Shown piece after piece: positions 1 through 22,157 of a DNA stretch of 64,000 nt. A model generated the notes under the pieces. It saw only the letters and a list, made by a program, of their open reading frames with translations, was not told where the DNA came from and searched no databases. Source of the DNA: Falsiroseomonas frigidaquae (lineage in GTDB: Bacteria > Pseudomonadota > Alphaproteobacteria > Acetobacterales > Acetobacteraceae); the NCBI RefSeq assembly GCF_012163145.1, contig NZ_JAAVTX010000003.1:558001-622000 (forward strand), given 5' to 3'. Made by a program: the position numbers and the translations under genes. Positions within the stretch are counted from its first letter, which is position 1. Every line of letters starts with the position of its first letter.

Positions 1-1
1 G

Positions 2-1582
2 CCCGCCGGCCTTTGGCAATCCGGGCCGCTGGCGGTGCAGGCGCGGCTGATGCAGCCGGTCGAGATCGGCCGCGTCACCTCGCTGCGCGTGGTCGCCGAC
101 GTGGCCCTGCTGGCGGATGGCGAGATGGCGGTGGAGCTGTGGCTGCGCAACGACGGCGCCATGCGTCCGGGCGGCGGCGCCGAGGCCTATACCGCGCGCC
201 TGCTGCTGGATGGGCGGGAGGCGCTGGTGGCGGAAATTCCGCGCCACCACCACTACACCGGCTGGGGCCGCCTGCTCCACACCGGGCCGCCGCCGCCGCT
301 GCCGCGGCACGATGCCGCCTACCTGGCGGATGCCGGCGCCGCGCCGCGCTACGACCTGTCCACCGGCGTCGCGGCTTCGCTGCTGGCCAGCATGGGCAAC
401 CGGGTGCAGGAGCCCGCCTGGCAGCAGGCGCTCGGCCCGCGCCATGTCACGCAGCAGATGGGCCGCGCCGGCGGGCGGGCGGATATCGGGCCGATGACCA
501 TGCCGCAGGCGGTCTGGCTGCAGACCGGCGATCCGCGCGCGGCCGCCTTCGCCATCGGCCAGGCGGAAGCCGCCGGCAGCATCCCCTGGCATTTCTGGGA
601 CAGCGCGGCGGATCGCTGGATGGATACGCGGCGCTGGCCGCAGCTATGGACCGATGGCCGCGGCGGCGCGCCGCCGGGCGGGCTGGCGCAGCCGATCGCG
701 GGCGATACCGGCTGGCAGCTCGCATCATCCCACCAGCCGGACCTGGCGACGCTGCCCTGGCTGCTGACCGGCCGCCGCGCCTTCCTCGACGAGATGCAGG
801 CGCAGGCCTGCTGGTGCGTGCTCGGCCAATGGCCACGGCAGCGCGGCACGCCTGGCCGGCCCGGCGTGGCGGAGGGCGTGAACGTGGTTCGCGGCAACCA
901 GGTGCGCGGCGCGGCCTGGTCGCTGCGCCAGCTCGACAACGCTGCCTGGGCGACCCCGGAGGAGGAGCCCAACGCGCCGTGGCTGCAGGAGGCGGCGGCG
1001 GCGAACTGGGCATGGCTGCGCCAGCAGACCCCGCGCTGGACGCGCAGCCAGGGCGAGGCGCATGGCTGGGTGCCCGGCGAATACGGCACCGCCGGCATGC
1101 TGCCGCCCTGGCAGCAGGACTACCTGGCTTCCTCCGTCGCCGCCGCGGCGCGGCGCGGCAATGCGGATGCGCGGGCGGTGCTGGGGTGGATGACGAACTT
1201 CCTCGCCGGGCGGTTCCTGATGGGATCGGCGGGATTCACGCCGCATGACGGCGTCGCCTATCTGCTGGCGATCCGCGCCGATGCCGATGCCGGCAACCCG
1301 ATCCGCGACTGGGGTGAGCTCGGTACGGCGATGCGCGCGCAGTCGATGACGAATGGCGATGGCTGGCGCAAGACCGAAGGCGCCTCCGCCCAGCTTGCCC
1401 TGCAGGCACTGGCGCAGGTGATGGACGTGACCGAGGCCGGGGCGGCGCGCGTCGCCTATGAATGGCTGCGGAAGGCGGATGCGCCCTTCACCAGCGTGGC
1501 GGATTACCGGCGCGACCCGATGCTGAACATCGTGCCGCGCGACATGCCGCTGGTTCCCGGCAGCGTGCCGCGCTGCCGGTAG
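2..1582 (+). CDS. EPS-locus matrix/surface protein, CBM-less paralogue (5' end outside window)
   Basis: The reading frame is open to the left edge. Its first visible residues align with the interior of the large protein at 18945-22157 (LWQSGPLAVQAR here, FWQQGALTSEAR there), so I read it as a 3' fragment lacking roughly 140 N-terminal residues. An internal GTG at 35 is unlikely to be the true start. The shared core includes a PWHFWD motif, HQPDL, QVR(G/A)AAWSLRQ, HGWVPG(E/D)YGT and PPWQQDY, and looks largely helical. Unlike its paralogue it stops right after the core (YRRDP...) and has neither proline-rich linkers nor CBM60-like modules. I do not recognise an enzymatic family for the core; the paralogue's N-terminus resembles the YetA/PcRGLX-type N-terminal barrel, so a polysaccharide-acting role is possible but unproven. 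It lies tail to tail with the next gene, 16 bases apart. Confidence 0.72.
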   Translation, partial: PAGLWQSGPLAVQARLMQPVEIGRVTSLRVVADVALLADGEMAVELWLRNDGAMRPGGGAEAYTARLLLDGREALVAEIPRHHHYTGWGRLLHTGPPPPLPRHDAAYLADAGAAPRYDLSTGVAASLLASMGNRVQEPAWQQALGPRHVTQQMGRAGGRADIGPMTMPQAVWLQTGDPRAAAFAIGQAEAAGSIPWHFWDSAADRWMDTRRWPQLWTDGRGGAPPGGLAQPIAGDTGWQLASSHQPDLATLPWLLTGRRAFLDEMQAQACWCVLGQWPRQRGTPGRPGVAEGVNVVRGNQVRGAAWSLRQLDNAAWATPEEEPNAPWLQEAAAANWAWLRQQTPRWTRSQGEAHGWVPGEYGTAGMLPPWQQDYLASSVAAAARRGNADARAVLGWMTNFLAGRFLMGSAGFTPHDGVAYLLAIRADADAGNPIRDWGELGTAMRAQSMTNGDGWRKTEGASAQLALQALAQVMDVTEAGAARVAYEWLRKADAPFTSVADYRRDPMLNIVPRDMPLVPGSVPRCR

Positions 1583-1598
1583 CGCGGGGCGGGGCGGC

Positions 1599-2591
1599 TC
1601 AGCCCCGCGCCACGCCGCGCAGCGAACCCAGGCGCAGCAGCGCGGCACCGGCCACCTGGCCGACCGGCCGCGGCAGCGAGGCGACCGCATGCTTCACGCG
1701 CCGCAAGGCGCCGTGATGCGAGGCGGGCAGCAGCCGGTAGATGGCCCGCACCGCCGCATAATCCCGCCGCGCGAAGGCGGTATCCAGCGCCGCGGCGCGG
1801 CGTGCGGCGATGCTGGCGGTGATCTGCGCGGCAAGCGGGCGCAGCGTGGGCCGCGTGGCCAGCACATGTTCCAGCACCTGGGCATCGCCCAGGTTCATCT
1901 TCTGCACATCGCCTGAATAATTGTCGCCATGCTTGCGGATGCCGACCAGCGGCCGGCGCACCACGCCGAAGGGCGGATATTCGCCGAGCAGCAGGATGGT
2001 GACGAAATCCGTGCTGACGATCCGCCCGAGGCTGGCATCCCAACCGCCCAGCCCTTGCAGGAAGCCGCGCTCCGCCACGAAGCAGGAAGGGAAGAAGGGC
2101 TGGAACTGTACCAACCGGTCCACGATCGGCGCCTCGAACACGGCCAGGTCGTCGCCGAGGTCGCGCATTCCGTCCCAGTAGCCGGGCGGCGCGTCGGCGA
2201 ATTTATCGCGCGGCAGCAGCACGCCATCGCGCAGGATGCGGAAATTGGCGAAGGCGGTCCGCAGCGCCGGTGTGCGCGCCCACAGCGCCTGCATCGTCGC
2301 GATGAAATCCGGCTGCCAGATGTCGTCGCTGTCGCAGAAGGCGACGAGATCGCCGCGCGCCACCGCCAGCGCGGAGTTGCGCGCCGCCAGCTCCCCGCCA
2401 TTGGGGATGCGCATATAGGTGACGCGCGGCGCGTAGCGCGCCACGACCTCCGCCGTGTCGTCGGTGGAGCCGTCATCCACCACGATCACCTCCAGCGCCG
2501 GGCTGGTCTGCGCCAGCACGGCGTCCAGCGTCTCGGGCAGCAGATGGGCGCGGTTGTAGGTCGGGATGATGACGCTGACGGATCGCATCAT
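1599..2591 (-). CDS. Family 2 glycosyltransferase
   Basis: 330-residue cytoplasmic GT-A enzyme. It starts with the family opening VIIPTYNR (residues 7-14), followed by VVDDGSTDD (38-45) and the metal-binding DSDD motif at 87-90, which is the GT2 DxD equivalent. It should transfer a sugar from an NDP-sugar during assembly of the surface glycan. It is the last gene of a three-gene minus-strand operon with the FkbM methyltransferase and another GT2; its ATG overlaps the end of the methyltransferase gene by 4 bases, indicating translational coupling. There is no membrane segment. Donor and acceptor cannot be told from sequence. Confidence 0.9.
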   Translation of the reverse strand: MMRSVSVIIPTYNRAHLLPETLDAVLAQTSPALEVIVVDDGSTDDTAEVVARYAPRVTYMRIPNGGELAARNSALAVARGDLVAFCDSDDIWQPDFIATMQALWARTPALRTAFANFRILRDGVLLPRDKFADAPPGYWDGMRDLGDDLAVFEAPIVDRLVQFQPFFPSCFVAERGFLQGLGGWDASLGRIVSTDFVTILLLGEYPPFGVVRRPLVGIRKHGDNYSGDVQKMNLGDAQVLEHVLATRPTLRPLAAQITASIAARRAAALDTAFARRDYAAVRAIYRLLPASHHGALRRVKHAVASLPRPVGQVAGAALLRLGSLRGVARG

Positions 2592-3613
2592 GCGGCCCTC
2601 CGGAACACCAGGTCCGCCACCTCGAAATCGCGCCGCGCCAGCGGCACCACCTGCAGGGGCGGCGTGTCGATGTAGAATTGCGCGCGGTAGGGGTTCATCA
2701 CCTCGAAGGCCTGGAAGCCGGCGCCGGCGAACAGCGCCAGCAGCTCATCCAGCGAACCGCCGAGCTGGCGCAACGCCGCCGGATTCACCTCGCACAGGAT
2801 CTCGGCATCCGCCCGCAGCAGCGGCAGCACATCGCGCATGCCCTGCACCACCAGCCATTCGGCGCCCTCCACATCCATCTTGATGAGGCGTGCGGCGCGC
2901 AGTTCCTCCAGCGGCACGATCTGCGAAAGCGGGCGTCCTTCCACCACCGCCTCCTGCGCCGCGCCGAGCCGCTCGGCCTCCGTCGCCACGATGGTGGTGC
3001 CGCCGAGGTTGCGGTCGTCATGCAGGTAGACGCTGACGGTGCCGGGCACATCCGTCGCCGCCAGGTTGTAGGTCTGCACGTTGGTGACGCCATTCGTCGC
3101 CAGGTTCTGCCGCAGCCGCGCATGGATCCAGGGCGAGGCCTCCACCGCATGCACGCGGCCCGTGGGCCCCACCAGATGCGCGGCGAGCAGCGCATGGGTG
3201 CCGACATTGGCGCCGATATCCACCACCACGTCGCCGGGCTTCAGCGCGGCGCGGTAGATGGCGGTGATCGCCGGTTCCCACACGCCGAAGAAATACATGT
3301 AGCCATGCACCGCATCCGGCAGCGCGCCGGCGAAGCGCGCGCCGAAGCGGGAACGCGCCTCGATCTCCAGCCGCCGCCACAGGATACGGCGTTCCACCAC
3401 ATGCCGCCACAGCCAGGCCTTGCCCAGGCTGCCCGGCATGCTCTGGAAATAGTGCCGCAGGCCGGCGCAGGCGGCTTGCAGCGCCGCGGTCTTCAGGCGT
3501 TCGCGCAGCGTATTGTTGCGATCAGGTCCATCGGAATGGTGCGGCCCGGCCTGGTGCGGCCCAGCCTGGTGCGGCCCAGCCTGGTGCGGCACTGAGATAT
3601 TGATGGCGTTCAT
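2588..3613 (-). CDS. FkbM-family SAM-dependent methyltransferase
   Basis: 341 residues when started at the ATG at 3613, which overlaps the stop of the upstream glycosyltransferase in an ATGA junction; an in-frame start further upstream would lie inside that gene. The SAM-binding segment is VVVDIGANVGTH (129-140), followed by the acidic VEAS, and a second FkbM signature KMDVEGAEW lies further on. FkbM enzymes usually O-methylate sugars or polyketides, so methylation of a glycan residue is likely here. The N-terminus is odd: residues 9-25 hold three near-identical HQAGP units encoded by a 15-base tandem repeat, probably a disordered tail. Confidence 0.88.
   Translation of the reverse strand: MNAINISVPHQAGPHQAGPHQAGPHHSDGPDRNNTLRERLKTAALQAACAGLRHYFQSMPGSLGKAWLWRHVVERRILWRRLEIEARSRFGARFAGALPDAVHGYMYFFGVWEPAITAIYRAALKPGDVVVDIGANVGTHALLAAHLVGPTGRVHAVEASPWIHARLRQNLATNGVTNVQTYNLAATDVPGTVSVYLHDDRNLGGTTIVATEAERLGAAQEAVVEGRPLSQIVPLEELRAARLIKMDVEGAEWLVVQGMRDVLPLLRADAEILCEVNPAALRQLGGSLDELLALFAGAGFQAFEVMNPYRAQFYIDTPPLQVVPLARRDFEVADLVFRRAA
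3541..3592. repeat. 15-bp coding tandem repeat (about 3.5 units)
   Basis: Three consecutive 15-base units (3541-3555, 3556-3570, 3571-3585; consensus gcggcccagcctggt) followed by a 7-base partial unit. The first unit differs from the next two by one base. The repeat is in frame and encodes the HQAGP units near the N-terminus of the FkbM methyltransferase, so copy number can change without breaking the gene. Confidence 0.9.
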
Positions 3614-4614
3614 GTCGCGCTCCGCACGGTGAATTGTTCTGCCTGGCTGTAGTGCCGCAGGTCGCGGCCTTCGGTTCCGCCCAGCCACAGGCTCAGGAAG
3701 CGGGCGAGGTCGCCGACCTCCCGCGGGTCCACCAGCCAGGCCGCGACGGCGGCGCGCAGCGCCGTGAAGCGGTTGCCGGCCAGCAGGTTGTTCAGTGCAA
3801 GGCCCTTGGTGGCCTTGTAGCGTGCCCAGCGCCGCTCCCGCGCGAAGCCGTGCAGCAGCGGGTCCCGTGCCGCCGCCACATGCACCTTCAGCGCCGAGAA
3901 GCGCAGCCGCGCCGCGTTGGAGGTGAGGCTCGGCCGGCCGCGGCGCCAGGCGTAGCCCTGGGCATCCAGGTAATGCAGCGGCGCCAGCACCGACAGCCGC
4001 GCCATCAGGTGGATATCCTCGCCATAGGTCACGCCCTCGGCGAAGCCGCCGGCGCGCAGCAGCACGTCCCGGCGCACCAGCATGGCGCCCAGATGCATCC
4101 AGAAATTGCTGAGCATCAGCGCCGTCAGCCTGGCGCCGCCATGCCGGGTCAGGCCCGGGGCCAGCGGCTCCGCGCCCTCGGTGGGCAGGCCGGCGGCCGG
4201 CTCCGTACCGTCATCCGGGTTGAGCAGGCAGTGGCGGGAGCCGATCCAGGCCGCGTCCGGCCAGGCCGCCGCCACCGCGCACAGCCGTTCCAGATGGCCC
4301 GGCAGCCACAGGTCATCGGCATCCAGGAAGCCGACCCAGTCGCCGATCGCGACCTGCATGCCGAGGTTGCGCGCGCTGGCGGGCCCGGCATTGCGCGGGT
4401 TCCGCAGCACCAGCACGCGGCTATCCGCTTCGGCCAGTTCGGCCAGCGCCGCGCAGGTTGCCGCGTTGCGCGACGCATCGTCGACGAGAATGAGCTGCGC
4501 GATTCCATCCGGCACGCCGTCCGCCTGCTGCGCCGCGCCCAGCACGGATCGCGCTGCGGCGCGCAGCAGGTCGGGCGGTGTGTCGTAGACCGGGCAGATG
4601 AGGCTGATCCGCAC
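3610..4614 (-). CDS. Family 2 glycosyltransferase
   Basis: 334 residues with a GT2 fold: LICPVYDTPP at 5-14, LVDDASRN at 43-50, RNAGPASARN at 74-83 and the metal-binding DADD at 98-101, followed by LWLPGHL. It is the first gene of the minus-strand trio with FkbM and the second GT2, and its promoter should lie in the AT-rich gap 4615-4849 that it shares with the divergent epimerase. It probably adds a sugar to the exopolysaccharide repeat unit. Its specificity cannot be inferred, and sequence similarity to the neighbouring GT2 is limited to the catalytic motifs. Confidence 0.9.
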   Translation of the reverse strand: MRISLICPVYDTPPDLLRAAARSVLGAAQQADGVPDGIAQLILVDDASRNAATCAALAELAEADSRVLVLRNPRNAGPASARNLGMQVAIGDWVGFLDADDLWLPGHLERLCAVAAAWPDAAWIGSRHCLLNPDDGTEPAAGLPTEGAEPLAPGLTRHGGARLTALMLSNFWMHLGAMLVRRDVLLRAGGFAEGVTYGEDIHLMARLSVLAPLHYLDAQGYAWRRGRPSLTSNAARLRFSALKVHVAAARDPLLHGFARERRWARYKATKGLALNNLLAGNRFTALRAAVAAWLVDPREVGDLARFLSLWLGGTEGRDLRHYSQAEQFTVRSAT

Positions 4615-4849
4615 CCTGGGGATCCTTTATGCGAGGTGATGACGCGGAACATCCTCCAAATTCCCGGATACGACAGCATAAAAATGATCAATTTTCTCTC
4701 ATGATAAAACATCGAATATAATTCAATCATAATGCAATTTAGGTGATCTTCGCGTGTTTTATCAAGAACATGCGAACCAATAATTCGAACAGTCTATTTT
4801 CCATGGGATCAGGGTAAGCATGTAGGCATGGAAACAGCACGGTAGTCCG
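4615..4849. promoter_or_regulatory. AT-rich divergent promoter region
   Basis: This 235-base gap separates a minus-strand glycosyltransferase operon from a plus-strand epimerase and is strikingly AT-rich compared with its flanks. It contains a perfect TATAAT at 4717-4722; no convincing -35 element sits at the right distance on the plus strand (ttctct at 4694-4699). Both genes most likely take their promoters from here. Nothing that looks like a coding gene was seen. Confidence 0.5.
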
Positions 4850-5941
4850 GTGGCATTACTTCTCGTGACAGGCGGTTGCGGCTTCATCGGATCGCATCTC
4901 TGCGCCGCCCTGGTGGCGCGTGGCGACCAGGTGAGGGTGCTCGATGACCTCTCAACCGGCTCCCGCGCCAATCTGGCGCGCGGAGCCACGCTCATTGTCG
5001 GCAAGGTCGAGGACCCAGCCACGGTGCAGGCGGCGATGCAGGGGGTGGACGGGGTGTACCACCTCGCCGCCATCGCCTCCGTCGCGCGCTGCACGGAGGC
5101 GTGGCAGGAGACGCACCGCATCAACCTTTCCGCCACCATCTCCGTGCTCGACGCAGCGCGCGATGTCGGGCACGGCCTCGCGGTGCCGGTGGTCTACGCC
5201 TCCTCCGCCGCCATCTACGGCGTGCCGGACATCTGCCCGCTGGACGAGGATGCGCCGGCGCGGCCGCTCTCGGCCTATGGCGCGGACAAGCTGGGCTGCG
5301 AACTGCACGCCCGCGTCGCCGGCGTGGTGCATGGCGTGCCAAGCGTCGGGCTGCGCTTCTTCAACGTGTATGGGCCACGGCAGGACCCGCGCTCACCTTA
5401 TTCAGGCGTCATCTCGATCTTCTGCGAGCGCCTGGCCCGCAACCAGCCGGTCTTCGTGCATGGCGATGGCCGGCAGACGCGGGATTTCGTCTTCGTCGCG
5501 GATGTGGTGGCCGCGCTGCTTGCGGCGCTGCCCGCCGCATCCACCGACGCGCCCGTGTTCAATGTCTGCACCGGCCAGCCCACCTCGCTGCTCGAACTGA
5601 TCGACACCATCGGCCGCGTCTGCGGCACGGCGCCACAGGTCGAACACCAGGCGCCGCGGCTGGGTGACATCCGCCATTCGGTCGGCTCCGTCCTGCGCGC
5701 GCGCCAAGCGCTGCGGCTGCGGCCGCCGATCGCGTTGCAGGATGGTCTTTCCGCCGTGATCGGCTGGCTGCGGGATGGCAGCCCGGCGCTGTCCGATGTG
5801 CGGCCCGTGGCGCTGCGGGCGCCGCGCGCGTCTCAGGCGAACAGCCAGCGCAGGATCGCCACGACCAGGAACCAGGACGCGATGGAAAGACTGAGGATGA
5901 CGGCGATGGAAAGGCGCCAGGACCAGCGACCGCGCACCTAG
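4850..5941 (+). CDS. NAD-dependent epimerase/dehydratase (UDP-glucose 4-epimerase-like SDR)
   Basis: 363-residue extended SDR starting at GTG. The Rossmann motif TGGCGFIGSH lies at 6-15, YHLAA follows, and the catalytic set is SSAAIYG with YGADK about 25 residues later, which supplies the Tyr and Lys. RFFNVYGPRQDP and GDGRQTRDFVFV are typical of UDP-hexose epimerases and related NDP-sugar enzymes. It should produce an activated sugar for the adjacent transferases. The last 40 or so residues (rich in Arg and Gln) go beyond the usual family end and may be a disordered tail. It stands alone on its strand, about 130 bases before the amidotransferase gene. Confidence 0.85.
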   Translation: MALLLVTGGCGFIGSHLCAALVARGDQVRVLDDLSTGSRANLARGATLIVGKVEDPATVQAAMQGVDGVYHLAAIASVARCTEAWQETHRINLSATISVLDAARDVGHGLAVPVVYASSAAIYGVPDICPLDEDAPARPLSAYGADKLGCELHARVAGVVHGVPSVGLRFFNVYGPRQDPRSPYSGVISIFCERLARNQPVFVHGDGRQTRDFVFVADVVAALLAALPAASTDAPVFNVCTGQPTSLLELIDTIGRVCGTAPQVEHQAPRLGDIRHSVGSVLRARQALRLRPPIALQDGLSAVIGWLRDGSPALSDVRPVALRAPRASQANSQRRIATTRNQDAMERLRMTAMERRQDQRPRT

Positions 5942-6072
5942 CGCACCCCGCCTGCGGACACGCCTCGCCGACACTCCACCCCGCAGACCCCCGCATCTTC
6001 GATGCGTTTCAGAATGACCGCGGCCCCCAGGGGCCGCAAGCGCCTTCGCCCGCGCGCCAGGAGACACCGCCC

Positions 6073-7983
6073 ATGTGTGGACTCGTCGGTCTGTTCCACC
6101 CGCTTGATCCGGCAACGCCGGATCGTCGCACGCTGCACGGCATGGCCGAATTGCTGCGCCACCGCGGCCCGGATGGCGAAGGCGTCCATGCCGAGGCGCA
6201 TCTGGGCCTCGGCCACCGGCGCCTCGCCATCGTCGACCTCGCCGGCGGTGCGCAGCCGATGGCGACGGAGGATGGTCGCGTCGTGATCTCCTTCAACGGC
6301 GAGATCTACAACCACACGGAACTGCGGCAGGCGCTGGAAGCGCTCGGCCATGTGTTCCGCACGCGTTCGGACACGGAGTCGATCCTGCTCGGCTGGAAGG
6401 CCTGGGGCCTGGCGGTGCTGGACCGGCTGGATGGCATGTTCGCCTTCGCGCTGTGGGACCGCGACCGTGGCGAATTGCTGCTGGCGCGCGACCGGCTGGG
6501 CGAGAAGCCGCTGCACTACGCGCGCACCCCCGGCGGCGGCTGGGCCTTCGCCTCCGAGTTGCAGCCGCTGCTGTCCCTGCCTGGGGTTTCGCGCGGGATG
6601 AACGCGGCGGCGGTGGAGGATTTCCTCGCCCTTGGCTACGTGCCGGACCCGCACAGCATCCATCTCGGCATCCAGCGCCTGCCACCGGCGCATGCGCTGC
6701 TGCTGCAGCGCGGGCGGCCGGAACCGGCGGCGCTGTACCGTTACTGGCAGCCGCCGACGCGCGCCGCCGCCGCCCCCGCCGATGCGCCGGCGGAGCTGGC
6801 AAGGCGGCTGGATGCCGCGGTGCGGGCGCGGCTGATGGCCGATGTGCCGCTCGGCGCCTTCCTCTCCGGTGGCCTCGATTCCGGCGCCGTCACGGCGCTC
6901 GCCGCGCGCGCCCATGCGGGCATCGACAGCTTCACCATCGGCTTTCCCGGGCCGGAGGATGAAAGCACCATCGCGGCGGAGGTCGCCGCCCGCACCGGCA
7001 CGCGCCACCACACCCAGGCGGCGGAGACGGATTACCTGGCCGCCGCGCGCGGCCAGGCCGCGCTGTTCGGCGAGCCCTTCGGCGACCATTCCGCGGTGCC
7101 GACGCTGGCGGTCTGCACGCTGGCGCGGCGGCATGTGACGGTGGCGCTGTCCGGCGATGGTGGCGACGAGGTCTTCGCCGGCTATCGCCGGTACCGCTTC
7201 CACAAGCTGTCCGAAGGCGTGCGGCGGATGCTGCCGCCCGGCGTGCGCCGCCAGGTGATCGGCCGCCTCGCCGCCGCCTATCCGGTGCTGGCCAGCGCGC
7301 CGCGCTGGCTGCGCGCGCGCAACACGCTGACAGAACTCAGCCTGGACAGCGCGCTGGGCTATTATCGCACCGTCTGCAAGCTGCATGATTCACGTCGCCG
7401 CGCGCTGTTCTCGCCGGCGATGCGCGCGCAGCTCGATGGCCACGACCCGGCCGCGCGCTTCCCCGCGCTGATGGCGGAATGCGATCCGGAGGATGCGCTG
7501 CTGCAGGCGCAATACGCGGACCTGCATACCTACCTGCCCGGGGACATCCTGACCAAGCTCGACCGCACCAGCATGGCGGTGTCGCTGGAGGTGCGGCCGC
7601 CGCTGCTGGCGCATGGGCTGGTGGAATGGGGCATGTCGCTGCCCGCCCATCTCAAGCTGCAGGGCGGCCGCGGCAAGCAGGTGCTGCGCCGCGCCATGGC
7701 GCCGCTGCTGCCCGATTCCGTGCTGCACGGCGCCAAGCGCGGCTTCGCGCAGGGCATCGCCGGGCAGTTCCGCGAACGCGCGGAGACGGTGCGTGCGCGC
7801 CTGACCGGGGAGGCGATGCTGGATAGCGGCCTGTTCGAGGCCACGGCGCTGCAGCGCCTGGTGGATGAACATGCCAGCGGCCGCGCCGACCATTCGCAGC
7901 CGATCTGGCAGATGCTGGTGATGGAAGGCTTCCTGCGCGGCGGCACGCAGCCGGCGGAGGCCGAGTTGACGCATGCCGTCTGA
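6073..7983 (+). CDS. asnB: Asparagine synthase-type glutamine amidotransferase
   Basis: 636 residues. Cys2 directly after the initiator Met is the N-terminal nucleophile of the class II glutaminase domain, with RHRGPDGEG and SFNGEIYNH following. The synthetase domain carries the ATP pyrophosphatase loop SGGLDS (265-270) and LSGDGGDEVFAGY (359-371). It either makes asparagine or, as with the amidotransferases found in exosortase-linked EPS clusters, amidates a sugar or precursor. A good ribosome site (aggaga, 8 bases before the ATG) supports the start. It opens the plus-strand EPS operon and overlaps the flippase gene by 11 bases, which favours the glycan role over general asparagine supply. 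Confidence 0.88.
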   Translation: MCGLVGLFHPLDPATPDRRTLHGMAELLRHRGPDGEGVHAEAHLGLGHRRLAIVDLAGGAQPMATEDGRVVISFNGEIYNHTELRQALEALGHVFRTRSDTESILLGWKAWGLAVLDRLDGMFAFALWDRDRGELLLARDRLGEKPLHYARTPGGGWAFASELQPLLSLPGVSRGMNAAAVEDFLALGYVPDPHSIHLGIQRLPPAHALLLQRGRPEPAALYRYWQPPTRAAAAPADAPAELARRLDAAVRARLMADVPLGAFLSGGLDSGAVTALAARAHAGIDSFTIGFPGPEDESTIAAEVAARTGTRHHTQAAETDYLAAARGQAALFGEPFGDHSAVPTLAVCTLARRHVTVALSGDGGDEVFAGYRRYRFHKLSEGVRRMLPPGVRRQVIGRLAAAYPVLASAPRWLRARNTLTELSLDSALGYYRTVCKLHDSRRRALFSPAMRAQLDGHDPAARFPALMAECDPEDALLQAQYADLHTYLPGDILTKLDRTSMAVSLEVRPPLLAHGLVEWGMSLPAHLKLQGGRGKQVLRRAMAPLLPDSVLHGAKRGFAQGIAGQFRERAETVRARLTGEAMLDSGLFEATALQRLVDEHASGRADHSQPIWQMLVMEGFLRGGTQPAEAELTHAV

Positions 7984-11474: not shown

Positions 11475-11521
11475 TGCCGCCATGCAGCGCGATGCGCGCC
11501 CGCTCCGCAAGGGGCCGGCGC

Positions 11522-14562: not shown

Positions 14563-15950
14563 CCAGGGCTGTCGAAGCGCCTTACAGCACCATCCCCTGC
14601 TGCCGGAAGCTACGGACAGCGCACTGTTCTGAAATGAAAAATTCCATGGCAAGCGGCTTGCATCCCGGTCACGTGAACCTGCCACCCGCCGGCCGCGCCG
14701 ATGGTGCCCCGGCGGTCGCCACGCCCTATCCGGCACCTGCACCGTTACCGACCGAGGATCTGCTTGCCCATGCGCCCCCACCTGCGGCATCGCCGTCCCG
14801 CGCCAGGTCAGGCCACCCCTTGAGCCCAGACGGGGCACATGGCGGCGCCACGCGGCCGTACCGCAACGGGCCCCTCCATGACGGGCCCCTCAGCCCCGGC
14901 CCGAGGCCGCGGCCGGCACCGCTGCGCCTGTTGCCGTTGACGGAAGCTCGCCTGCCGGATTGGTGCGACCGCTTCCTGCAGCCGGTCGATGCCGGGGACA
15001 TCTTCGCCACCCGCCTGTGGTACGACACGACGCTGGCGCACGCCCTGCCGCCGGGCGCCAGCCCGCTGCTCGGCCTGTGCGCGGAGGAGTTGGCGTTGCT
15101 GCCGTTGCAGCGCGGCGCCGGCGGCAGCCTCCGCAGCCTCACCACCCCCTATTCCCTGGCCTGGCGCCCGCTTGTGGCGCCGGATGCGCCCGCTGCCATG
15201 CTCGCCACTTCCGGCGCCAGCTTCGGTGCCGCGCTGCGCTTCCGCGCTCCGGCCCGGCTGGAGGCACTGGCAGAGGATGCGCCGGGGCTGGAGGATTGGC
15301 TGGAGGGGCTGCAGTCGGCTGGCATCGCCGTGCAGCGCTACCGGCATTTCGGCAATTGGCATGAGGCGCTGGCACCGGGCGCCGGCTGGGCCGGCTACCT
15401 GGCCGCGCGCCCGCCCGCGCTGCGGACCACGGTGCGCCGCAAGCTGGACCGGGCGCGCCGCGATTTCCGCTTCGAGATGCTGCGCGAGCCAGGCCCGGCT
15501 CTGGAGGCCGGGATCGCCGGCTACCTCGACGTGCATGCGCGAAGCTGGAAGCCGGCGGAGCCCTTCCCGGCCTTCGACCCGGCTTTGATGCGCGGCGCCG
15601 CCGCGCAGGGCGCGCTGCGCCTGGCGCTGCTGCGGGATGCGGCGGGGCAGGCGGTCGCGGCGCAGTACTGGCTGGTCTCCGGCGGTCGCGCCTGGCTGCT
15701 GAAGCTGGCGCATGTCGAGGCCAGCCGCGCCGCATCCCCCGGTACCGCGTTGACCGCAATGATGATCCGCCACCTGATCGAGGAGGAAGCCGTGCAGCAT
15801 CTGGATTTCGGGCGCGGCGACGATGCCTACAAAAGCCTGTGGGTGGCGGCGCGGCGGCAGCGCATCGGCCTGGTGCTGGCGCATCCGGGCCATCCGCTCG
15901 GATTGCTGGCCGTGGCGCGCAATGGATTGGCGGGATGGTTCGGCCGATGA
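14559..15950 (+). CDS. CelD/BcsL (FemAB-like) acyltransferase
   Basis: 463 residues from an ATG overlapping the previous stop. The first 125 or so residues are Pro/Ala/Gly-rich and look disordered. The catalytic part follows (DAGDIFATRLWYDTT, TTVRRKLDRARRDF, VQHLDFGRGDDAYKSLW); the last motif is the usual end of the family's GNAT domain. It is probably cytoplasmic and modifies a glycan precursor or exported polysaccharide with an acyl group. A second family member is encoded antisense at 10386-11474; the two share motif order but are clearly diverged, so this is not a recent duplication. Confidence 0.8.
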   Translation: MTRAVEAPYSTIPCCRKLRTAHCSEMKNSMASGLHPGHVNLPPAGRADGAPAVATPYPAPAPLPTEDLLAHAPPPAASPSRARSGHPLSPDGAHGGATRPYRNGPLHDGPLSPGPRPRPAPLRLLPLTEARLPDWCDRFLQPVDAGDIFATRLWYDTTLAHALPPGASPLLGLCAEELALLPLQRGAGGSLRSLTTPYSLAWRPLVAPDAPAAMLATSGASFGAALRFRAPARLEALAEDAPGLEDWLEGLQSAGIAVQRYRHFGNWHEALAPGAGWAGYLAARPPALRTTVRRKLDRARRDFRFEMLREPGPALEAGIAGYLDVHARSWKPAEPFPAFDPALMRGAAAQGALRLALLRDAAGQAVAAQYWLVSGGRAWLLKLAHVEASRAASPGTALTAMMIRHLIEEEAVQHLDFGRGDDAYKSLWVAARRQRIGLVLAHPGHPLGLLAVARNGLAGWFGR

Positions 15951-17140
15951 GGATTCTCTACAGCCACCGCATCCGGTCCCGCGACGGGCAGGGCGTGCAT
16001 CTGGACGCCATGGTGGCCGCGCTGCGTGCCGACGGGCATGTGGTGCAGGTCACCGGCCCGGCCGGCTATGACAAGGCCGAACTGGGCGGCGAAAGCGCCG
16101 GCCTAGCGCGGCTGCGCCGCCTGCTGCCGGCCTGGGCGCAGGCGCTGGCGGAGATTGCCTATGCGGTGCCCGCCACCTGGCGGCTGCACCGCGCCGCGGC
16201 CGCCTTCAAGCCGGACGTGATCTACGAACGCGCCAATCTGTACCACGTGGCCGGCCGCATCGTGGCCCGCACCCGCGGCGTGCCGCTGCTGCTGGAGGTG
16301 AATGCGCCGCTGGCGGAGGAACGCGCCCGCTTCGGCGGCCTCGGCCTGCCCCGGCTCTCCGCCTGGATCGAACGCTTCGCCTGGCGCGGCGCGCATCGCG
16401 TGCTGCCGGTGACGGAGGTGCTGGCCGGCCGCGTCGCGGATGCCGGCGTGCCACCCGGCCGCATCACCGTGGTGCCGAACGGCATCGACCTGGCGGATTT
16501 CCCCGAACCCGCGGCGCGCCGGGAGGGTGCTCCGGACTCGGGCGCGCTGGTGCTCGGCTTCGTCGGCTTCGTGCGGGACTGGCACGGGCTGGACAAGGCG
16601 CTGCATGGCATTGCCGCCTGGCGCGGCGACCGGCCCCTGTCGCTGGTGGTGGTGGGCGATGGCCCGGCCCGGCCGGGGCTGGAAAAGCTCGCGGCCGAAC
16701 TTGGTATCGCCGACCGCGTGCGCTTCACCGGCCTGGCGGCACGGCATGCGGTGCCGGCCCTGGTCGCCGGCTTCGACATCGCCCTGCAACCGGCCGCGGT
16801 GCCCTATGCCTCTCCTCTGAAGGTCTTTGAATACATGGCCGCTGCCCGCGCGATCGTCGCCCCCGACCAGCCCAACCTGCGGGAGGTGCTGCGCGATGGC
16901 GAAACCGCGCTGCTGTTCGATCCCGCCGCGCCGGGCGCCTTCTGGGGCGCCGTGGCGCGGCTGGCGCAGGATGCCACGCTGCGGCAGCGGCTGGGCGACG
17001 CGGCCCGGGCGCAGATCCTGGCGCGCGACCTGACCTGGGCCGGCAATGCCCGCCGCGTCGTGGCGATTGCGGAGGCGGAGCGTACGGCGCTGCGGCCGCG
17101 CGGCGCGGCCGGTGAAATCGCGCGGGGGTCGCTGGCATGA
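15947..17140 (+). CDS. GT4 glycosyltransferase
   Basis: 397 residues, GT-B fold. YSHRIRSRDGQGVHLDAM is the N-terminal acceptor loop, IYERANLYH and VPNGIDLADF mark the interdomain region, and PLKVFEYMAAARAIVAPDQP is the donor-binding segment, with the usual second Glu of the E-x7-E motif apparently replaced (the family standard is E-x7-E). It is likely to elongate the EPS repeat unit from an NDP-sugar. It overlaps both neighbours by 4 bases within the operon. There is no signal peptide or membrane segment. Confidence 0.88.
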   Translation: MRILYSHRIRSRDGQGVHLDAMVAALRADGHVVQVTGPAGYDKAELGGESAGLARLRRLLPAWAQALAEIAYAVPATWRLHRAAAAFKPDVIYERANLYHVAGRIVARTRGVPLLLEVNAPLAEERARFGGLGLPRLSAWIERFAWRGAHRVLPVTEVLAGRVADAGVPPGRITVVPNGIDLADFPEPAARREGAPDSGALVLGFVGFVRDWHGLDKALHGIAAWRGDRPLSLVVVGDGPARPGLEKLAAELGIADRVRFTGLAARHAVPALVAGFDIALQPAAVPYASPLKVFEYMAAARAIVAPDQPNLREVLRDGETALLFDPAAPGAFWGAVARLAQDATLRQRLGDAARAQILARDLTWAGNARRVVAIAEAERTALRPRGAAGEIARGSLA

Positions 17141-18351
17141 GGATGCCTGCCTTCTCCCAGCCCCGGCTGGCCGAGCAGTTCCCCGATGCCGTGGCGCGGG
17201 CCGGCTCCAGCCAGGCGGGCCAGGCCGGGCAGGCCAGCACCGGCAGCCCGCTGGTGATGCATGTCTTCCCGAGCTTCGCCGTGGGTGGCGCTCAGGTGCG
17301 CTTCGCGGCGCTGGCGAACCGCTTCCGCGCCCGCTGGCGGCACGTGGTGGTGCCGCTGGATGGCAATGGCGCCTGCGCCGCGCGAATCGGCCCGCAGGTG
17401 CCCTTCACGCTGCTGGACCCCCCCGCGTCCCGCGGTACCGGCGCGGCCGGGCTGGCGCGCAAGCTGTGGGACATCCAGGCGCTGCTGCGGCGGCTGCGGC
17501 CGGATGTGCTGGTGACCGGCAATTGGGGCAGCATGGACTGGGCCATCGCCCGCCACGCCGTGCCCGGGCTGCGCCACATCCACATCGAGGACGGCTTCGG
17601 GCCGGAGGAGGCGGAGCGCCAGTTCCGCCGCCGCGTGCTGGCCCGGCGCTGGGCGCTGCGCGGCAGCACCGTGGTGCTGCCCTCCCTGACCCTGCAGCGG
17701 CTGGCGCAGCACGAGTGGAAGCTGCCGGAGGCCGCGCTGCGCTACATCCCGAACGGGCTGGACCTGAACCGCTTCCGGCCGGACGGACCGGTGGCCTGCC
17801 CGGTTCCGGGGCACGGACAGGGCGCGGTACCGCTGATCGGCACCGTGGCCGCGCTGCGGCCGGAGAAGGCGCTGGACCGCCTGCTGCGTGCCTGCGCGCT
17901 GCTGGCGCGGCGGCGCACCGCCTTCCACCTGGCGATCATCGGCGACGGCCCGGACCGCGCCCGGCTGCAGGCGCTGACGGCCTCGCTGGGGCTGGAGCAA
18001 CGGGTGACCTTCGCCGGCCATGTGCCGGACCCGGCAGCCGCCTACCGGTCCTTCGACGTCTTCGCCCTGACCTCGGACACCGAGCAGATGCCGTTCTCGG
18101 TGCTGGAGGCGATGGGCACCGGCCTGGCCGTGGCGGCCACCGATGTGGGTGACGTGGCGGAGATGGTGGCCGCGCAGAACCGCCCCTTCGTGACCCCGCG
18201 CGACGATGCGGATTTCGCCATCGCCCTGGCGACGCTGCTGGAGGAGCCGGCCCGGCGGCGCAACATCGGCGCCGCCAACCGGTCCCGCGCCGTGCTGGAT
18301 TTCAGCGAGGAAGCGATGTTCCAGGCCTACGCGGCCCTGATCGAAGGCTGA
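17137..18351 (+). CDS. GT4 glycosyltransferase, last gene of the EPS operon
   Basis: 404 residues. After a 35-residue Gln/Gly-rich lead come HVFPSFAVGGAQVRF, typical of GT4 enzymes of PEP-CTERM/exosortase-linked clusters, YIPNGLDLNRFRPDG, GTVAALRPEKALDRLLRA and TSDTEQMPFSVLEAMGTG with the E-x7-E pair. It should transfer a sugar in EPS assembly. It starts in a 4-base overlap with the previous transferase and is followed by a 593-base non-coding gap, so it ends the operon. Confidence 0.88.
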   Translation: MRMPAFSQPRLAEQFPDAVARAGSSQAGQAGQASTGSPLVMHVFPSFAVGGAQVRFAALANRFRARWRHVVVPLDGNGACAARIGPQVPFTLLDPPASRGTGAAGLARKLWDIQALLRRLRPDVLVTGNWGSMDWAIARHAVPGLRHIHIEDGFGPEEAERQFRRRVLARRWALRGSTVVLPSLTLQRLAQHEWKLPEAALRYIPNGLDLNRFRPDGPVACPVPGHGQGAVPLIGTVAALRPEKALDRLLRACALLARRRTAFHLAIIGDGPDRARLQALTASLGLEQRVTFAGHVPDPAAAYRSFDVFALTSDTEQMPFSVLEAMGTGLAVAATDVGDVAEMVAAQNRPFVTPRDDADFAIALATLLEEPARRRNIGAANRSRAVLDFSEEAMFQAYAALIEG

Positions 18352-18944
18352 TCCCCGCAGCCTCGGCCGCGCCCGGTCCTGTGGCACCGGGTCGCTGCCG
18401 GCTGCGCCGCATGGTTGTACCCGGCGTGGTTCGCGCGCTGCCAGATCGGGCAGCTTGACGCCGCAACCCCATCCCGTTCCTGCAGCAGCCACGGCGAATT
18501 CGCCCCTTAAGCGCACAGGTTGTGCGGTGAGGCCGCTTGGGCGGCCCCGGCCTGCCCCTGCAGCCGGCCACGTCGCGCACGCCACCCCCCTGCTTCGTGT
18601 TCAGGAACGATGGGATTTCAGGGAACCGGCGCGCAGCCATCACCTCGCCACAAACACGGTCAGAATGCGGCCGGAGCGGAGCGTCGTAACTATTCATGTA
18701 TCATACTACAGCGGGGGTACTTCCAAATATGCGCAATTCTGGTGTTCATTCTGTTGCTGAACCGGTATGGATCCATACATAAGCTTACACCTCCCGGCTT
18801 TCAAATTACCGAGATCGATCTTGGACGACTTTATCTTACTGCATACCGGCCCTTCCTTTCGTAATTTTAATCAATCTTCGCGCAGATATGATGCAACTTC
18901 CGGTGGTGGATGCGTCGGTTTTCTCGGCGCCGAGGGAGTTGCGT
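18352..18944. promoter_or_regulatory. 593-bp non-coding leader of the CBM60 protein gene
   Basis: No convincing gene. The first 300 bases are GC-rich and contain a 6-bp hairpin at 18372-18391 (CCCGGT, 8-base loop, ACCGGG) just past the EPS operon, a weak terminator candidate. From about 18670 the composition becomes AT-rich. Here a plausible sigma-70-like pair occurs: ttgctg (18754-18759), 16-base spacer, tacata (18776-18781). The spacer holds a 14-base perfect palindrome, gtatggatccatac (18765-18778), a possible operator. The ribosome site gagggag lies 6 bases before the ATG at 18945. Confidence 0.45.
18765..18778. promoter_or_regulatory. 14-bp perfect palindrome in putative promoter spacer
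   Basis: The sequence gtatggatccatac equals its own reverse complement and overlaps the spacer and first bases of the proposed -10 element for the downstream surface-protein gene. Such placement fits a repressor operator. The cognate regulator is unknown; the XRE-type regulator encoded downstream at 22439 is one candidate by proximity only. Confidence 0.3.
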
Positions 18945-21900
18945 ATGTCTGATTCAACCCACGGTCTCGTCCTTCAGAATGCGGGCGGCGGCCCGCTGGC
19001 GGCCGGTATCGCCACCTTCGGCCAGGTGTTCCAGCAGGGCGAGGTGCCCGCCGGCGCCAGTCTCGTGGCTCAGCAGGGAGGGACCGCCCTGCCCGTCCAG
19101 ATGGACGTGAAGACCCGCTATGAGGACGGTTCGGTGAAGATGGCCGTGCTGGCCGTGCAGCGCCCCGCGCTGGCCGCCGGCGAGTCGGTCGATCTCGTCC
19201 TGGCCGCCGTCTCCACAGCCTCCGCGCCTCCGGCGCTCGACCTGGCGCAGGGCCTGACGGGCCACAGCTTCACGGTGGACATCGCCATCCAGGGCGGCGC
19301 CACGCTGCAGGTGGACGTGCTGGCCGAACTGCGCGCCGCGCTGGCCGATGGCAGCGCCAGCTTCTGGCAGCAGGGCGCCCTGACCAGCGAGGCGCGGGTC
19401 GAGATCGACCTGCCCGGCTCGCAGCGGATGGTCTTCGACGTGGCCGTCTTCAAGGGCGGCGGCTTCGCGGTGGAAGCCCAGTTCAACAACGACCAGGCGA
19501 TGCAGGCCAGCGGCGGCCGCGTCCAGTACGACGTCACCGTCACCATGGACGGCAAGGTCGCGGCGCAGGAAACGCTGGACCAGGGCCAGTACCAGAACTG
19601 GCACCAGGGCTTCGCCAGCAACACGCATGATGGCGGCCAGGGCATCGGCAGCCCGGCGCAGGGCTGGCTCAACATTCAGCACGACATCGCCTGGCTGCAG
19701 GATGCCGGCGCCGTCGCGCGCTACGACCTGGACCAGTCGGTCAATCCCAGCCTGCTGAACGGCTATGCCAACGCGATCAAGGCGGCGGGCTGGGACGAGC
19801 CGCTCGATGCCAACGGCGTCACCACCTACATGCCGGGCACCGGCGGGCGCCCGGACATCGGCTTCACCACGCTGCCCAACACCGTCTGGCTGCTGACGCA
19901 GGATGCCCGCGCCGCGGCCTATGCGATGGGCCAGGCCGAAGCCGCCAGCGCCGTGCCGTGGCACTTCTGGGACGCCGAGAACGGCACCTGGCTGAACACC
20001 GACGCCTATCCGAAGCTGTGGCTGGACGCCCGCGGCGGCACCGGCACGCCGGGCGATGCCAACTCCACCGGCCTGACCCAGCAGGTGGATGGCCAGACCG
20101 GCTGGCATACCGACGCGGCGCACCAGCCCGACCTGTCCTACGTGCCCTACCTGATGACCGGCGAGCGCTGGATGCTGGACAACCTCCAGGCCCAGGCGGT
20201 GTGGTCGATCCTGTCCTACTGGCCCGATCCGCGCGGCGATGGCAACGACAACGTCATCGACGGCAGCCAGGTCCGCGCCGCCGCCTGGTCGCTCCGCCAG
20301 GTGGATGAGGCCGCCCGCGTCAGCCCGGACGGCAGCGCCGAGCAGGCCTTCTTCCAGGAGGCCTCGGACGCCAACTACGCGTGGCTCGTCTCCAAGATTC
20401 CCGAATGGACCGCGATGCAGGGGGAATCGCATGGCTGGGTGCCGGGCGATTACGGCACCCCCGGCGCGATGCCGCCCTGGCAGCAGGACTACTTCGCCTC
20501 CACCGTCATCGCCGCCACCCGCAACGGCAACGCGGACGCCAGGACGTTCCTGGAATGGCAGACCAACTTCCTGGTCGGCCGCTTCATGTCGGAGGATCAG
20601 GGCTTCGAGGCCCGCGACGGCGCCGCCTACCTGATCGCCACCAGCGATCCGCAGAGCGGCCGCATCTACACCAGCTGGGCGGAGATCGGCGCGCAGACCG
20701 AGGCACTCGGCTGGAGCAACGGCGACTCGGGCTGGGCGCGCAGCGAGGGCGACTACGCGCAGCTCGCCCTGGCGACGCTGGCCGGGATCTATGAGATCAC
20801 CGGCTCGGCCGAGGCCAAGCAGGCCTATGAGCTGCTGATCGCCGAGAAGGCGCCCTTCTCCACCCCCGCCGACTACACCCGCGACCCGACCTATGCCATC
20901 GCCGCGCCTGGCAAGGTGACGGTCGAATTGCCGCCGGTGGAGCTTCCCCCGGTGGAGCTTCCCCCGGTGGAACTGCCATCGGTGGAACTGCCGGGGACGC
21001 CGGCACCGGCGCCGGAGCCTGCGCTGGTCGCGCTCGCGGTGGTGCTCGGCGCGGAAAGCTGGTCCGGCGATCCCATGGCGGTCGTAAAGGTGGATGGCGT
21101 CGAGGTTTTCCGCGGCAGCGTTTCCGCGCAGCACAGCCAGGGCGGCGCACGCTACGAACTCGGCGAGTTCGCGGCGGGCCAGCCCCATGTGGTGCAGGTC
21201 GCCTTCCTGAACGACGCTTGGGGTGGCTCGGCGGAAACCGACCGCAACCTGCATGTCGAAGCCGTACTGGTGGACGGCGTCGAGACCGGCCATTCGCGCG
21301 GGCTGTTCAACAAGGGCGAGGTCGCCTTCGACCTCGATGCGGCCGCAACCACGGCGCAGACGCCGCCGGTCGCGACGCCGCCGGTCGTAACGCCGCCGGT
21401 CGTAACACCGCCGGTCGTAACGCCGCCACCCGCCACACCCGCACCGGTCGCGCCGCAGCAGGATGTGCTGACCATCGGCATCTCCGGCGACGCCTGGCAG
21501 GGCAATGCACAATACGTGCTGACGCTGGATGGCGAACGGATCGGCGGCATCCGCGTGGCGGATGCGGTCCACGCGCAGGGTGAGACGGAGCAGGTCACGA
21601 TCACCGGTGACTTCACCGGCGGGTTGCACAAGCTCGGCATCACATTCATCAACGATGCGTGGGGTGGCCATGCGGCGGCCGACCGGAACCTCCACGTCGA
21701 CTTCCTGTCGATCAACGGCACCGATCTCGACCAATCCGTGTCCCTGACCAACAACGGTTCGGCGAGCTTCGACTTCACCGCGGATACGGCGGCCGCCTCG
21801 CCGTCGCTCACGCCGGTGCAGACGCTGGGCGCAGGCGAAGACAAGCTGCGCCTCGCGGTCTCGCAGGACGCGTGGCAGGGGGATGCGCAGTTCATCCTGT

Positions 21901-22157
21901 TCCTGAACGGCGAGCAGCTCGGCGGTACGCGGACCGTGCAGGCCTCGCATGCCGAAGGCGCCGTCGAGATCTATGAGATCCTCGGAACCTTCGGCGATGG
22001 CAACGACGTGCTGGGCGTGCGCTTCCTTAACGATGCATGGGGCGGCAACGCCGCGGCAGACCGGAATCTGTACGTCGATCACCTGTCGTTGAACGGCACC
22101 GAGTTGCACGGCGTGACGCCGCTGCTCTCGAGCGGCGATGTCTTTCTGCAGTTCTAG
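18945..22157 (+). CDS. Large modular carbohydrate-binding matrix/surface protein with three CBM60-like modules
   Basis: 1070 residues from the ATG at 18945, chosen for its gagggag ribosome site; an in-frame ATG at 18888 would add 19 residues but has no such site. Residues about 10-140 (FGQVFQQGEVPAG, then EDGSVKMAVL) resemble the N-terminal barrel of YetA/PcRGLX rhamnogalacturonan lyase-like proteins. Residues 140-655 are the core shared with the protein at the left edge of the window. A VELPP linker (660-684) leads to module 1 (about 694-795), a TPPVV linker (806-830) to module 2 (840-945), then module 3 (966-1070). Each module ends in FLNDAWGG or FINDAWGG plus DRNL, the calcium/xylan-binding signature of CBM60-like domains. 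There is no classical signal peptide, so export, if any, would be by a type I or unknown route. It probably binds the locus's own polysaccharide. Confidence 0.8.
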   Translation: MSDSTHGLVLQNAGGGPLAAGIATFGQVFQQGEVPAGASLVAQQGGTALPVQMDVKTRYEDGSVKMAVLAVQRPALAAGESVDLVLAAVSTASAPPALDLAQGLTGHSFTVDIAIQGGATLQVDVLAELRAALADGSASFWQQGALTSEARVEIDLPGSQRMVFDVAVFKGGGFAVEAQFNNDQAMQASGGRVQYDVTVTMDGKVAAQETLDQGQYQNWHQGFASNTHDGGQGIGSPAQGWLNIQHDIAWLQDAGAVARYDLDQSVNPSLLNGYANAIKAAGWDEPLDANGVTTYMPGTGGRPDIGFTTLPNTVWLLTQDARAAAYAMGQAEAASAVPWHFWDAENGTWLNTDAYPKLWLDARGGTGTPGDANSTGLTQQVDGQTGWHTDAAHQPDLSYVPYLMTGERWMLDNLQAQAVWSILSYWPDPRGDGNDNVIDGSQVRAAAWSLRQVDEAARVSPDGSAEQAFFQEASDANYAWLVSKIPEWTAMQGESHGWVPGDYGTPGAMPPWQQDYFASTVIAATRNGNADARTFLEWQTNFLVGRFMSEDQGFEARDGAAYLIATSDPQSGRIYTSWAEIGAQTEALGWSNGDSGWARSEGDYAQLALATLAGIYEITGSAEAKQAYELLIAEKAPFSTPADYTRDPTYAIAAPGKVTVELPPVELPPVELPPVELPSVELPGTPAPAPEPALVALAVVLGAESWSGDPMAVVKVDGVEVFRGSVSAQHSQGGARYELGEFAAGQPHVVQVAFLNDAWGGSAETDRNLHVEAVLVDGVETGHSRGLFNKGEVAFDLDAAATTAQTPPVATPPVVTPPVVTPPVVTPPPATPAPVAPQQDVLTIGISGDAWQGNAQYVLTLDGERIGGIRVADAVHAQGETEQVTITGDFTGGLHKLGITFINDAWGGHAAADRNLHVDFLSINGTDLDQSVSLTNNGSASFDFTADTAAASPSLTPVQTLGAGEDKLRLAVSQDAWQGDAQFILFLNGEQLGGTRTVQASHAEGAVEIYEILGTFGDGNDVLGVRFLNDAWGGNAAADRNLYVDHLSLNGTELHGVTPLLSSGDVFLQF
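20922..20996. repeat. 15-bp coding repeat, VELPP linker (5 units)
   Basis: Five in-frame 15-base units encode VELPP, VELPP, VELPP, VELPS and VELPG. Units two and three are identical at the base level (gtggagcttcccccg). The repeat forms the extended linker between the core and the first CBM60-like module. Confidence 0.9.
21360..21434. repeat. 15-bp coding repeat, TPPVV linker (5 units)
   Basis: Five in-frame 15-base units (acgccgccggtcgta and variants) encode TPPVA, TPPVV, TPPVV, TPPVV and TPPPA. They form the linker between CBM60-like modules 1 and 2. Modules 2 and 3 are joined by a different, non-repetitive linker. Confidence 0.9.

Follow-up and report, generated by a model that had tools for sequence, protein, structure and literature searches.

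Why should one exopolysaccharide (EPS) locus carry two copies of a large protein that fits no named enzyme family, and what might these copies do to the polymer? The question is raised by a stretch of the Falsiroseomonas frigidaquae genome (contig NZ_JAAVTX010000003.1, positions 558,001 to 622,000), which at its full length of 64,000 nucleotides is called the window below. It contains the 3' part of one copy, A, and the whole of the other, B. Both are real open reading frames (ORFs), they lie 17 kb apart, and they have in common a core of about 640 residues with 45-46% identity. We consider it probable that this core is a new family of polysaccharide-cleaving enzymes with a plan like that of polysaccharide lyase family 26 (PL26), that its substrate is the EPS of XrtA/PEP-CTERM-type loci, that it comes in an envelope and a secreted form, and that phages use it as a depolymerase.

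Two copies of one core and its predicted fold

The features of the two copies are as follows.

1..1582, plus strand: copy A, 3' part (whole gene G000:C13:557501-559582, equal to L003:9501-11582, 693 aa)
18888..22157, plus strand: copy B, 1089 aa, signal peptide not seen
18960..19211, plus strand: RIFT-barrel domain of B, residues about 25-108
19269..19616, plus strand: beta-sandwich domain of B, residues about 128-243, named by analogy with PL26
19686..20882, plus strand: alpha/alpha toroid of B, residues about 267-665, holding H412, R463, W467 and R470
21039..21293, plus strand: CBM60 module 1 of B
21468..21737, plus strand: CBM60 module 2 of B
21849..22109, plus strand: CBM60 module 3 of B
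22131..22154, plus strand: C-terminal tail of B, SGDVFLQF, resembling a type I secretion signal (acidic residue, then hydrophobics)

BLASTP aligns A and B over 527 positions (45% identity, E 1e-139), and searching the entire genome with an E limit of 0.01 brings up these two copies and no third, with the second copy at 46%. The original prediction had described such a long common core, marked by four motifs (PWHFWD, QVR(G/A)AAWSLRQ, HGWVPG(E/D)YGT and PPWQQDY), which ends the left-hand protein and is followed in the right-hand one by three CBM60-like modules. All four motifs are indeed in both proteins. Copy A is core only, with a signal-like N-terminus (MRLTRRGLAATMGGLAISGC); its gene starts 500 bases to the left of the window, and because its ORF overlaps that of the preceding glycosyltransferase by four bases, coupled translation of the two is suggested. 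Beyond its core, B consists of proline-rich linkers and three CBM60 modules (PF16841, 130 bits against a Pfam cut-off of 28.2), the only CBM60 found in the genome. A YetA/PcRGLX-like barrel had also been proposed at the N-terminus of B, and PcRGLX_1st is matched there, narrowly above its cut-off (25.0 against 22.1). Pfam and NCBIfam scans of the remainder of the core give no significant match.

The fold of the core was predicted with AlphaFold2. A first model based on 11 sequences was weak (pLDDT 64) and was replaced by a second, based on 27 sequences including phage relatives (pLDDT 91, pTM 0.93), in which a predicted RIFT barrel, a beta-sandwich and an alpha/alpha toroid follow one another. 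When this better model is used in a fold search, the seven top matches in the Protein Data Bank (PDB) are all PL26 PcRGLX (E 1.3e-7 to 3e-6, probability 1.00), followed by a mannosidase of glycoside hydrolase family 38 (GH38; E 4e-4) and by GH88 UGL and sugar epimerases (E 8e-3 and above). The PL26 exo-rhamnogalacturonan lyases are the best solved matches with both models (E about 1e-7, probability 1.00). The structure check that had been called for thus yields a PL26-like three-domain fold, with the qualification that the predicted domains agree while the whole chain superposes poorly; because identity is about 10% and the TM score at most 0.44, the core is not filed as PL26. At sequence level, the RIFT barrel (PcRGLX_1st) is the sole part recognised by Pfam, which with an E limit of 10 picks it out in 16 of the 30 members scanned, and the toroid has no Pfam, NCBIfam or PHROGs model in the scans made. 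PcRGLX_3rd was not found in nine genomes searched, that of the window included, and PF07470 (GH88/GH105) is matched neither by the core members nor in nine genomes searched. A search for a solved relative with an 11-row alignment gave nothing relevant, and a PDB profile search gave one non-significant match, to GH88 UGL (1vd5, E 1.1), in three colinear segments that include the DIG and RGxAW motifs.

Within the core, H412, R463, W467, R470 and G325 are identical in all 88 rows aligned (72 bacterial and 16 phage), and Y214 is kept in 85 (69/72 bacterial, 16/16 phage). D323, mapped by the E 1.1 alignment, is kept in 81 of the 88, and D415, mapped by inspection, in 50. A set of His, Arg, Arg and Tyr is typical of metal-free lyases, and the pattern in the core looks lyase-like on this basis.

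Spread, two forms and phage relatives

The tie between the core and EPS loci was surveyed in 398 Acetobacteraceae genomes whose selection was independent of the analyst. The core is present in 78 of them and exosortase in 135, and the two go together: exosortase is found in 70 of the 78 core-bearing genomes as against 65 of the 320 without the core (Fisher p 8.5e-31, kinship ignored). The eight core-positive genomes that give no exosortase match are 83-99% complete. Among the 57 genomes listed with exosortase and one of the longer core matches, copy and exosortase lie within 50 kb in 31, on different contigs in 23, and far apart on one contig in three. Neighbourhoods were compared in a sample that consists mostly of two-copy genomes and in which some entries are locus halves or repeats of one genome, so that its counts are biased. 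There, two or more of 23 EPS-locus markers accompany the core in 29 of 38 Acetobacteraceae stretches (none in 4) and in 8 of 12 from other families (none in 4), as against 0 of 12 control loci with CBM60 alone carrying any such marker. Linkage to EPS loci, which the original prediction had proposed to survey in relatives, is thus seen in many of them, with some copies outside. The same glycosyltransferase precedes A in 13 of the 14 loci of the A clade. The position of B varies: close relatives have it next to the last glycosyltransferases and others next to exosortase, and in L007 and L008 it is outside the locus.

In a sample of the class, 15 of 385 genomes match, including that of the window, three of them partially, and homologues of PrsK, PrsR, PrsT or EpsB occur in several of these loci (L101, L105, L107, L108, L109); a sample of the phylum (398 genomes) gives one match besides the window's own. 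A plasmid search gives one remote copy, on pSR-1 of Skermanella rosea (L132:19839-22445), annotated as a calcium-binding protein, with genes for partition and sugar transport nearby. The two copies are directly adjacent and head to head in one group of genera (L115, L116, L117), where few or no EPS markers are close.

A tree was built from 72 of 79 distinct bacterial core matches, those under 480 residues or 300 bits being left out, and rows were labelled mechanically as A or B according to a C-terminal extension under or over 60 residues. The A clade (n=14, SH-aLRT 100) is sister to a B clade (n=34, SH-aLRT 98, or 93 in a tree of the toroid alone). In another group of genera, a second pair of 4 A and 3 B rows splits separately (100 each). 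By the tree, the family would have been duplicated into two forms at least twice independently.

The two forms differ at both ends. Within Acetobacteraceae, a scan from ATG starts picks out a signal-like N-terminus in 15 of the 20 A rows, and of the 39 B rows only one has it. The rule is limited to this family because copies elsewhere do not follow it: a signal-like stretch is seen in 2 of 12 long copies, and the sole short copy (L064) fails. In the window, the first in-frame start of B is at 18888 and its N-terminus is not signal-like (ATG scan, no dedicated predictor). A plain hydrophobicity scan before the core was also tried and gave no clean A/B split, as several B rows score equally high; in these high-scoring rows the segment is frame upstream of the start or the core's edge. 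At the other end, B relatives finish with CBM60 or RTX-like repeats, the latter in many of them, so CBM60 was dropped as the distinguishing mark of the copies. In the window's B, C-terminal RTX repeats were not found, and CBM60 is there instead. The earlier claim that the copies differ by carbohydrate binding therefore holds in this genome and fails as a general statement, RTX-type repeats replacing CBM60 in many B relatives; an envelope form and a secreted form would be the better contrast.

Type I secretion signals typically end in Asp followed by mostly hydrophobic residues. Ends of this kind were seen by eye in 16 of 21 complete B ORFs of Acetobacteraceae (an Acidiphilium copy included), the five others being those of the second pair group, L013 and L113. 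Judged by this motif, the tail SGDVFLQF of the window's B may be a secretion signal. L006, L009 and L107 have genes for HlyD-type adaptors no more than 10 kb away from a core gene. Other Acetobacteraceae proteins (L016-L024) carry tandem CBM60 behind unrelated N-terminal domains, several with ends like those of type I substrates, and CBM60 may commonly travel on type I cargo in this family.

Relatives of the core are also encoded by phages. A scan of viral contigs gives 24 loci, some near-identical, with profile scores of 86 to 535 bits. In L139, L142, L144, L145, L152, L161 and L165, neighbouring genes match families of portal, head maturation protease, terminase, baseplate wedge, tail fibre J and endolysin, so that at least these loci are phage structural modules; beside L134 and L159, the genes tested match no family of known function. 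Sixteen of the 24 loci were placed in a tree of the toroid alone, where they form three groups, two of them deep and the third (L134, L135) sister to clade A with a support of 99. A second viral scan gives eight contigs whose core relatives are 51-100% identical to that of L134. With L161, L162, L164 and L165 included as well, the tree still unites six phage rows with the 14 A rows (support 99), although the phage rows taken by themselves are a weak group (support 33). The copies in L133-L135 match the profile only from position 105-140 onward and hence lack the RIFT barrel. No PHROGs family covers the core in nine phage copies and P0001, with one weak partial match outside the toroid. In EBPR siphovirus 1 (ESV1; L157:8242-12672), the core is gp39, a hypothetical protein, and the next gene, gp40, is annotated as a glycosyl hydrolase; large ORFs also follow the core in L139 and L142. 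In the excerpts of the EBPR phage paper (PMC3097231), ESV1 is listed under another accession with its host unknown, and the terms glycosyl hydrolase and depolymerase do not occur.

The surrounding locus

Judged by its gene content, the neighbourhood of A and B belongs to the XrtA/PEP-CTERM type of EPS locus that Haft 2006 (PMC1569441) describes: exosortase, PrsK, PrsR, PrsT and EPS genes, which mark such loci, are all present. To the left of A is a sugar transferase of the EpsB type, which exceeds the cut-off of TIGR03025 and falls short of that of TIGR03013. PrsK, PrsR and PrsT, on the same side, score 459, 595 and 435 bits against cut-offs of 300, 503 and 312. Chain-length, kinase, outer-membrane and ATPase genes, recognised by sequence inspection only, lie further left, and beyond them are exosortase (C13:538429) and a PEP-CTERM protein. 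The pair had been said to bracket the EPS locus; B does stand at its right end, but A is inside it, the locus continuing leftward. Control of A and B by sigma-54 via PrsR was considered and rejected, as in every row at least 10 of 100 shuffles contain a site as good as the best -24/-12-like one upstream of the core gene. The other genes of the locus within the window, and the regulator that follows B, are listed here.

1599..2591, minus strand: family 2-type glycosyltransferase (matches below cut-offs)
2588..3688, minus strand: FkbM-type methyltransferase (TIGR01444 above cut-off)
3610..4614, minus strand: glycosyltransferase (matches below cut-offs)
4850..5941, plus strand: NAD-dependent sugar epimerase (matches below cut-offs)
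6073..7983, plus strand: XrtA/PEP-CTERM-type AsnB amidotransferase (TIGR03108 725 bits, cut-off 817; TIGR01536 above cut-off)
7973..9517, plus strand: Wzx-type flippase (PF13440)
9520..10452 (start approximate), plus strand: probable glycosyltransferase (by inspection; no Pfam match)
10386..11510, minus strand: FemAB/GNAT-type acetyltransferase (PF13480)
11525..13777, plus strand: GT4 glycosyltransferase (family assigned to the N-terminal half)
13774..14562, plus strand: DUF218 protein
14514..15950, plus strand: FemAB/GNAT-type acetyltransferase (PF13480)
15839..17140, plus strand: GT4 glycosyltransferase
17137..18351, plus strand: GT4 glycosyltransferase
23157..26066, minus strand: hybrid regulator (CheB, histidine kinase, receiver, LuxR type)

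The FemAB/GNAT gene at 10386-11510 is on the minus strand within an otherwise plus-strand EPS block, an orientation kept in several relatives, and its end overlaps the ORF of the glycosyltransferase on the opposite strand. The hybrid regulator, of which a homologue also follows B in L005, L006, L009, L082 and L087, may regulate B.

What the core may do, and its place among known systems

A working model can be proposed from these data. The core would cleave the EPS of its own XrtA/PEP-CTERM-type locus. With its Tat/Sec-type, possibly lipoprotein, signal, A would work on nascent polymer in the periplasm or at the envelope, trimming it or clearing it away. B, with CBM60 in the window and RTX repeats in many relatives, would be secreted by the type I route and remodel the finished matrix or anchor to it. 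In phage tail modules, the core would be a depolymerase for getting through such polysaccharide. The idea of a polysaccharide-acting protein, already put forward in the original prediction, is well supported by the PL26-like fold, the linkage to EPS loci, the co-occurrence with exosortase and the homologues in phage tail modules. A bolder version, to which we give slightly less than even chances, is that a new lyase family would be the processing enzyme so far missing from the picture of exosortase-type EPS loci, duplicated at least twice into envelope and type-I-secreted, matrix-binding forms. Phages would have adopted it for the depolymerase of their tails, in one case from the envelope lineage or together with it, and the cell's own slime-trimming tool would then have become the phage's key to the slime.

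Several results weigh against the cleaving-enzyme model. Most doubt attaches to how remote the PL26 match is (9-10% identity, query-normalised TM 0.30-0.44) and to the wide range of chemistry on the toroid, which also occurs in hydrolases (GH88, GH105, GH76) and in sugar epimerases, and therefore leaves cleavage as not the sole possible chemistry. None of 30 members matches PcRGLX_2nd or PcRGLX_3rd (Pfam, E up to 10), and D415 is not conserved. The tie to the locus is looser in places: exosortase is distant from the copies in G088, G232 and G062, markers are missing around L007, L008, L114 and L117 in Acetobacteraceae and L100, L103, L104 and L111 in other families, and no EPS genes are seen around the pSR-1 copy in an incomplete gene table. 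As to the two compartments, 5 of the 20 A rows miss the signal threshold (four just below it with an arginine pair or triplet, and L012 with no ATG in range of the scan), and of the 50 core-bearing stretches no more than 4 have HlyD, at three distinct places with one repeat. The window's locus is without type I transporter genes, the three HlyD genes of this genome that are above the cut-off being elsewhere. Searched with a consensus for the sigma-54 element, the upstream regions of core genes give no signal.

Four other explanations share some of this evidence. The core could be a GH88/GH105-like hydrolase instead of a lyase, with its role otherwise unchanged, as the three-segment match to GH88 UGL with DIG and RGxAW and the presence of GH88 and GH105 structures among the fold matches would suggest. 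We find this unlikely, since in the fold search the E-values of PL26 are better than those of GH88 by over four orders of magnitude, the residues identical in 88 of 88 rows include His, Arg, Arg and Trp in a lyase-like pattern, and the candidate acids are replaced in 7 (D323) and 38 (D415) of these rows. Still less probable is a modifier that does not cut, for example a sugar epimerase acting on the polymer. Epimerases do occur in EPS loci, such as AlgG in alginate loci, and the toroid is the fold of AGE-type and cellobiose 2-epimerases, which appear from rank 10 of the fold search, with a glucuronyl C5-epimerase at rank 43 of the first search (E 0.91); yet the best full-chain matches are PL26 lyases with an identical three-domain order, and a position in phage tail modules better suits a depolymerase.

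About the same small chance is given to a non-catalytic EPS binder or matrix organiser, the bacterial copies being matrix lectins and those of phages adsorption proteins. CBM60 and RTX tails would fit such a role, as would an analogy with the Rhizobium Rap proteins described in excerpts of PMC9298526, but the strictly conserved polar cluster of the toroid, common to bacteria and phages, resembles an active site. It is very improbable, finally, that A and B digest foreign glycans, for example from plants, as food and stand in the EPS locus by chance: PL26 enzymes do act on pectin and the plasmid copy is near sugar-uptake genes, but the conserved place in XrtA loci, the pairing across genera and the co-occurrence with exosortase all argue otherwise.

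To our knowledge, no enzyme is known that cuts the polymer of an exosortase locus, and no search was aimed at this point. If the cleaving-enzyme model is true, the occurrence of one family in biosynthetic loci as well as in phage tails would offer two independent enzyme sources for that polymer and a means of shortening it, and the recurrent division of the family between envelope and secretion would be a clear case of two-site EPS processing. In excerpts of PMC9850573 and PMC9012009, floc formation in activated sludge is described as needing exopolysaccharide genes and PEP-CTERM proteins. In the open-licence literature, no paper on the core family was found, and nothing relevant on PL26/YetA/PcRGLX or on exosortase with type I secretion or CBM60.

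Among known systems, the closest is PL26 PcRGLX (5XQ3, 5XQG, 5XQJ, 5XQO), which has the same domain types in the same order, the best fold match and the Pfam-recognised RIFT barrel. The core differs from it by its identity of about 10%, its TM score of at most 0.44 and the lack of PcRGLX_2nd and PcRGLX_3rd matches, and by its bacterial EPS-locus context with CBM60 or RTX tails. The unsaturated uronyl hydrolases of GH88/GH105 (UGL, YteR) have the alpha/alpha toroid in common with it and a weak colinear match including RGxAW, whereas by sequence the core match is not significant, there are extra N-terminal domains, and the candidate acid residue is not conserved. AlgL and BcsZ are depolymerases of EPS loci, and PlyA and PlyB are Rhizobium glycanases exported by type I secretion; these, too, are enzymes acting on the producer's own EPS, some periplasmic and some type-I-exported, but their folds differ from that of the core, and here a single family would fill both sites from one locus. 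Phage tail depolymerases resemble the core in lying beside baseplate or tail fibre J and endolysin genes, but no PHROGs family covers it. The locus itself shares PrsK, PrsR, PrsT, exosortase and an AsnB-like gene with the XrtA/PEP-CTERM EPS locus of Haft 2006, and the terms glycosyl hydrolase, lyase and type I secretion do not occur in the main text of that paper (PMC1569441). Depolymerases of EPS loci, type-I-exported glycanases and phage depolymerases are thus already known kinds; what is apparently new is the family, its tie to the exosortase locus, its recurring division into two forms, and the fact that phages have it too.

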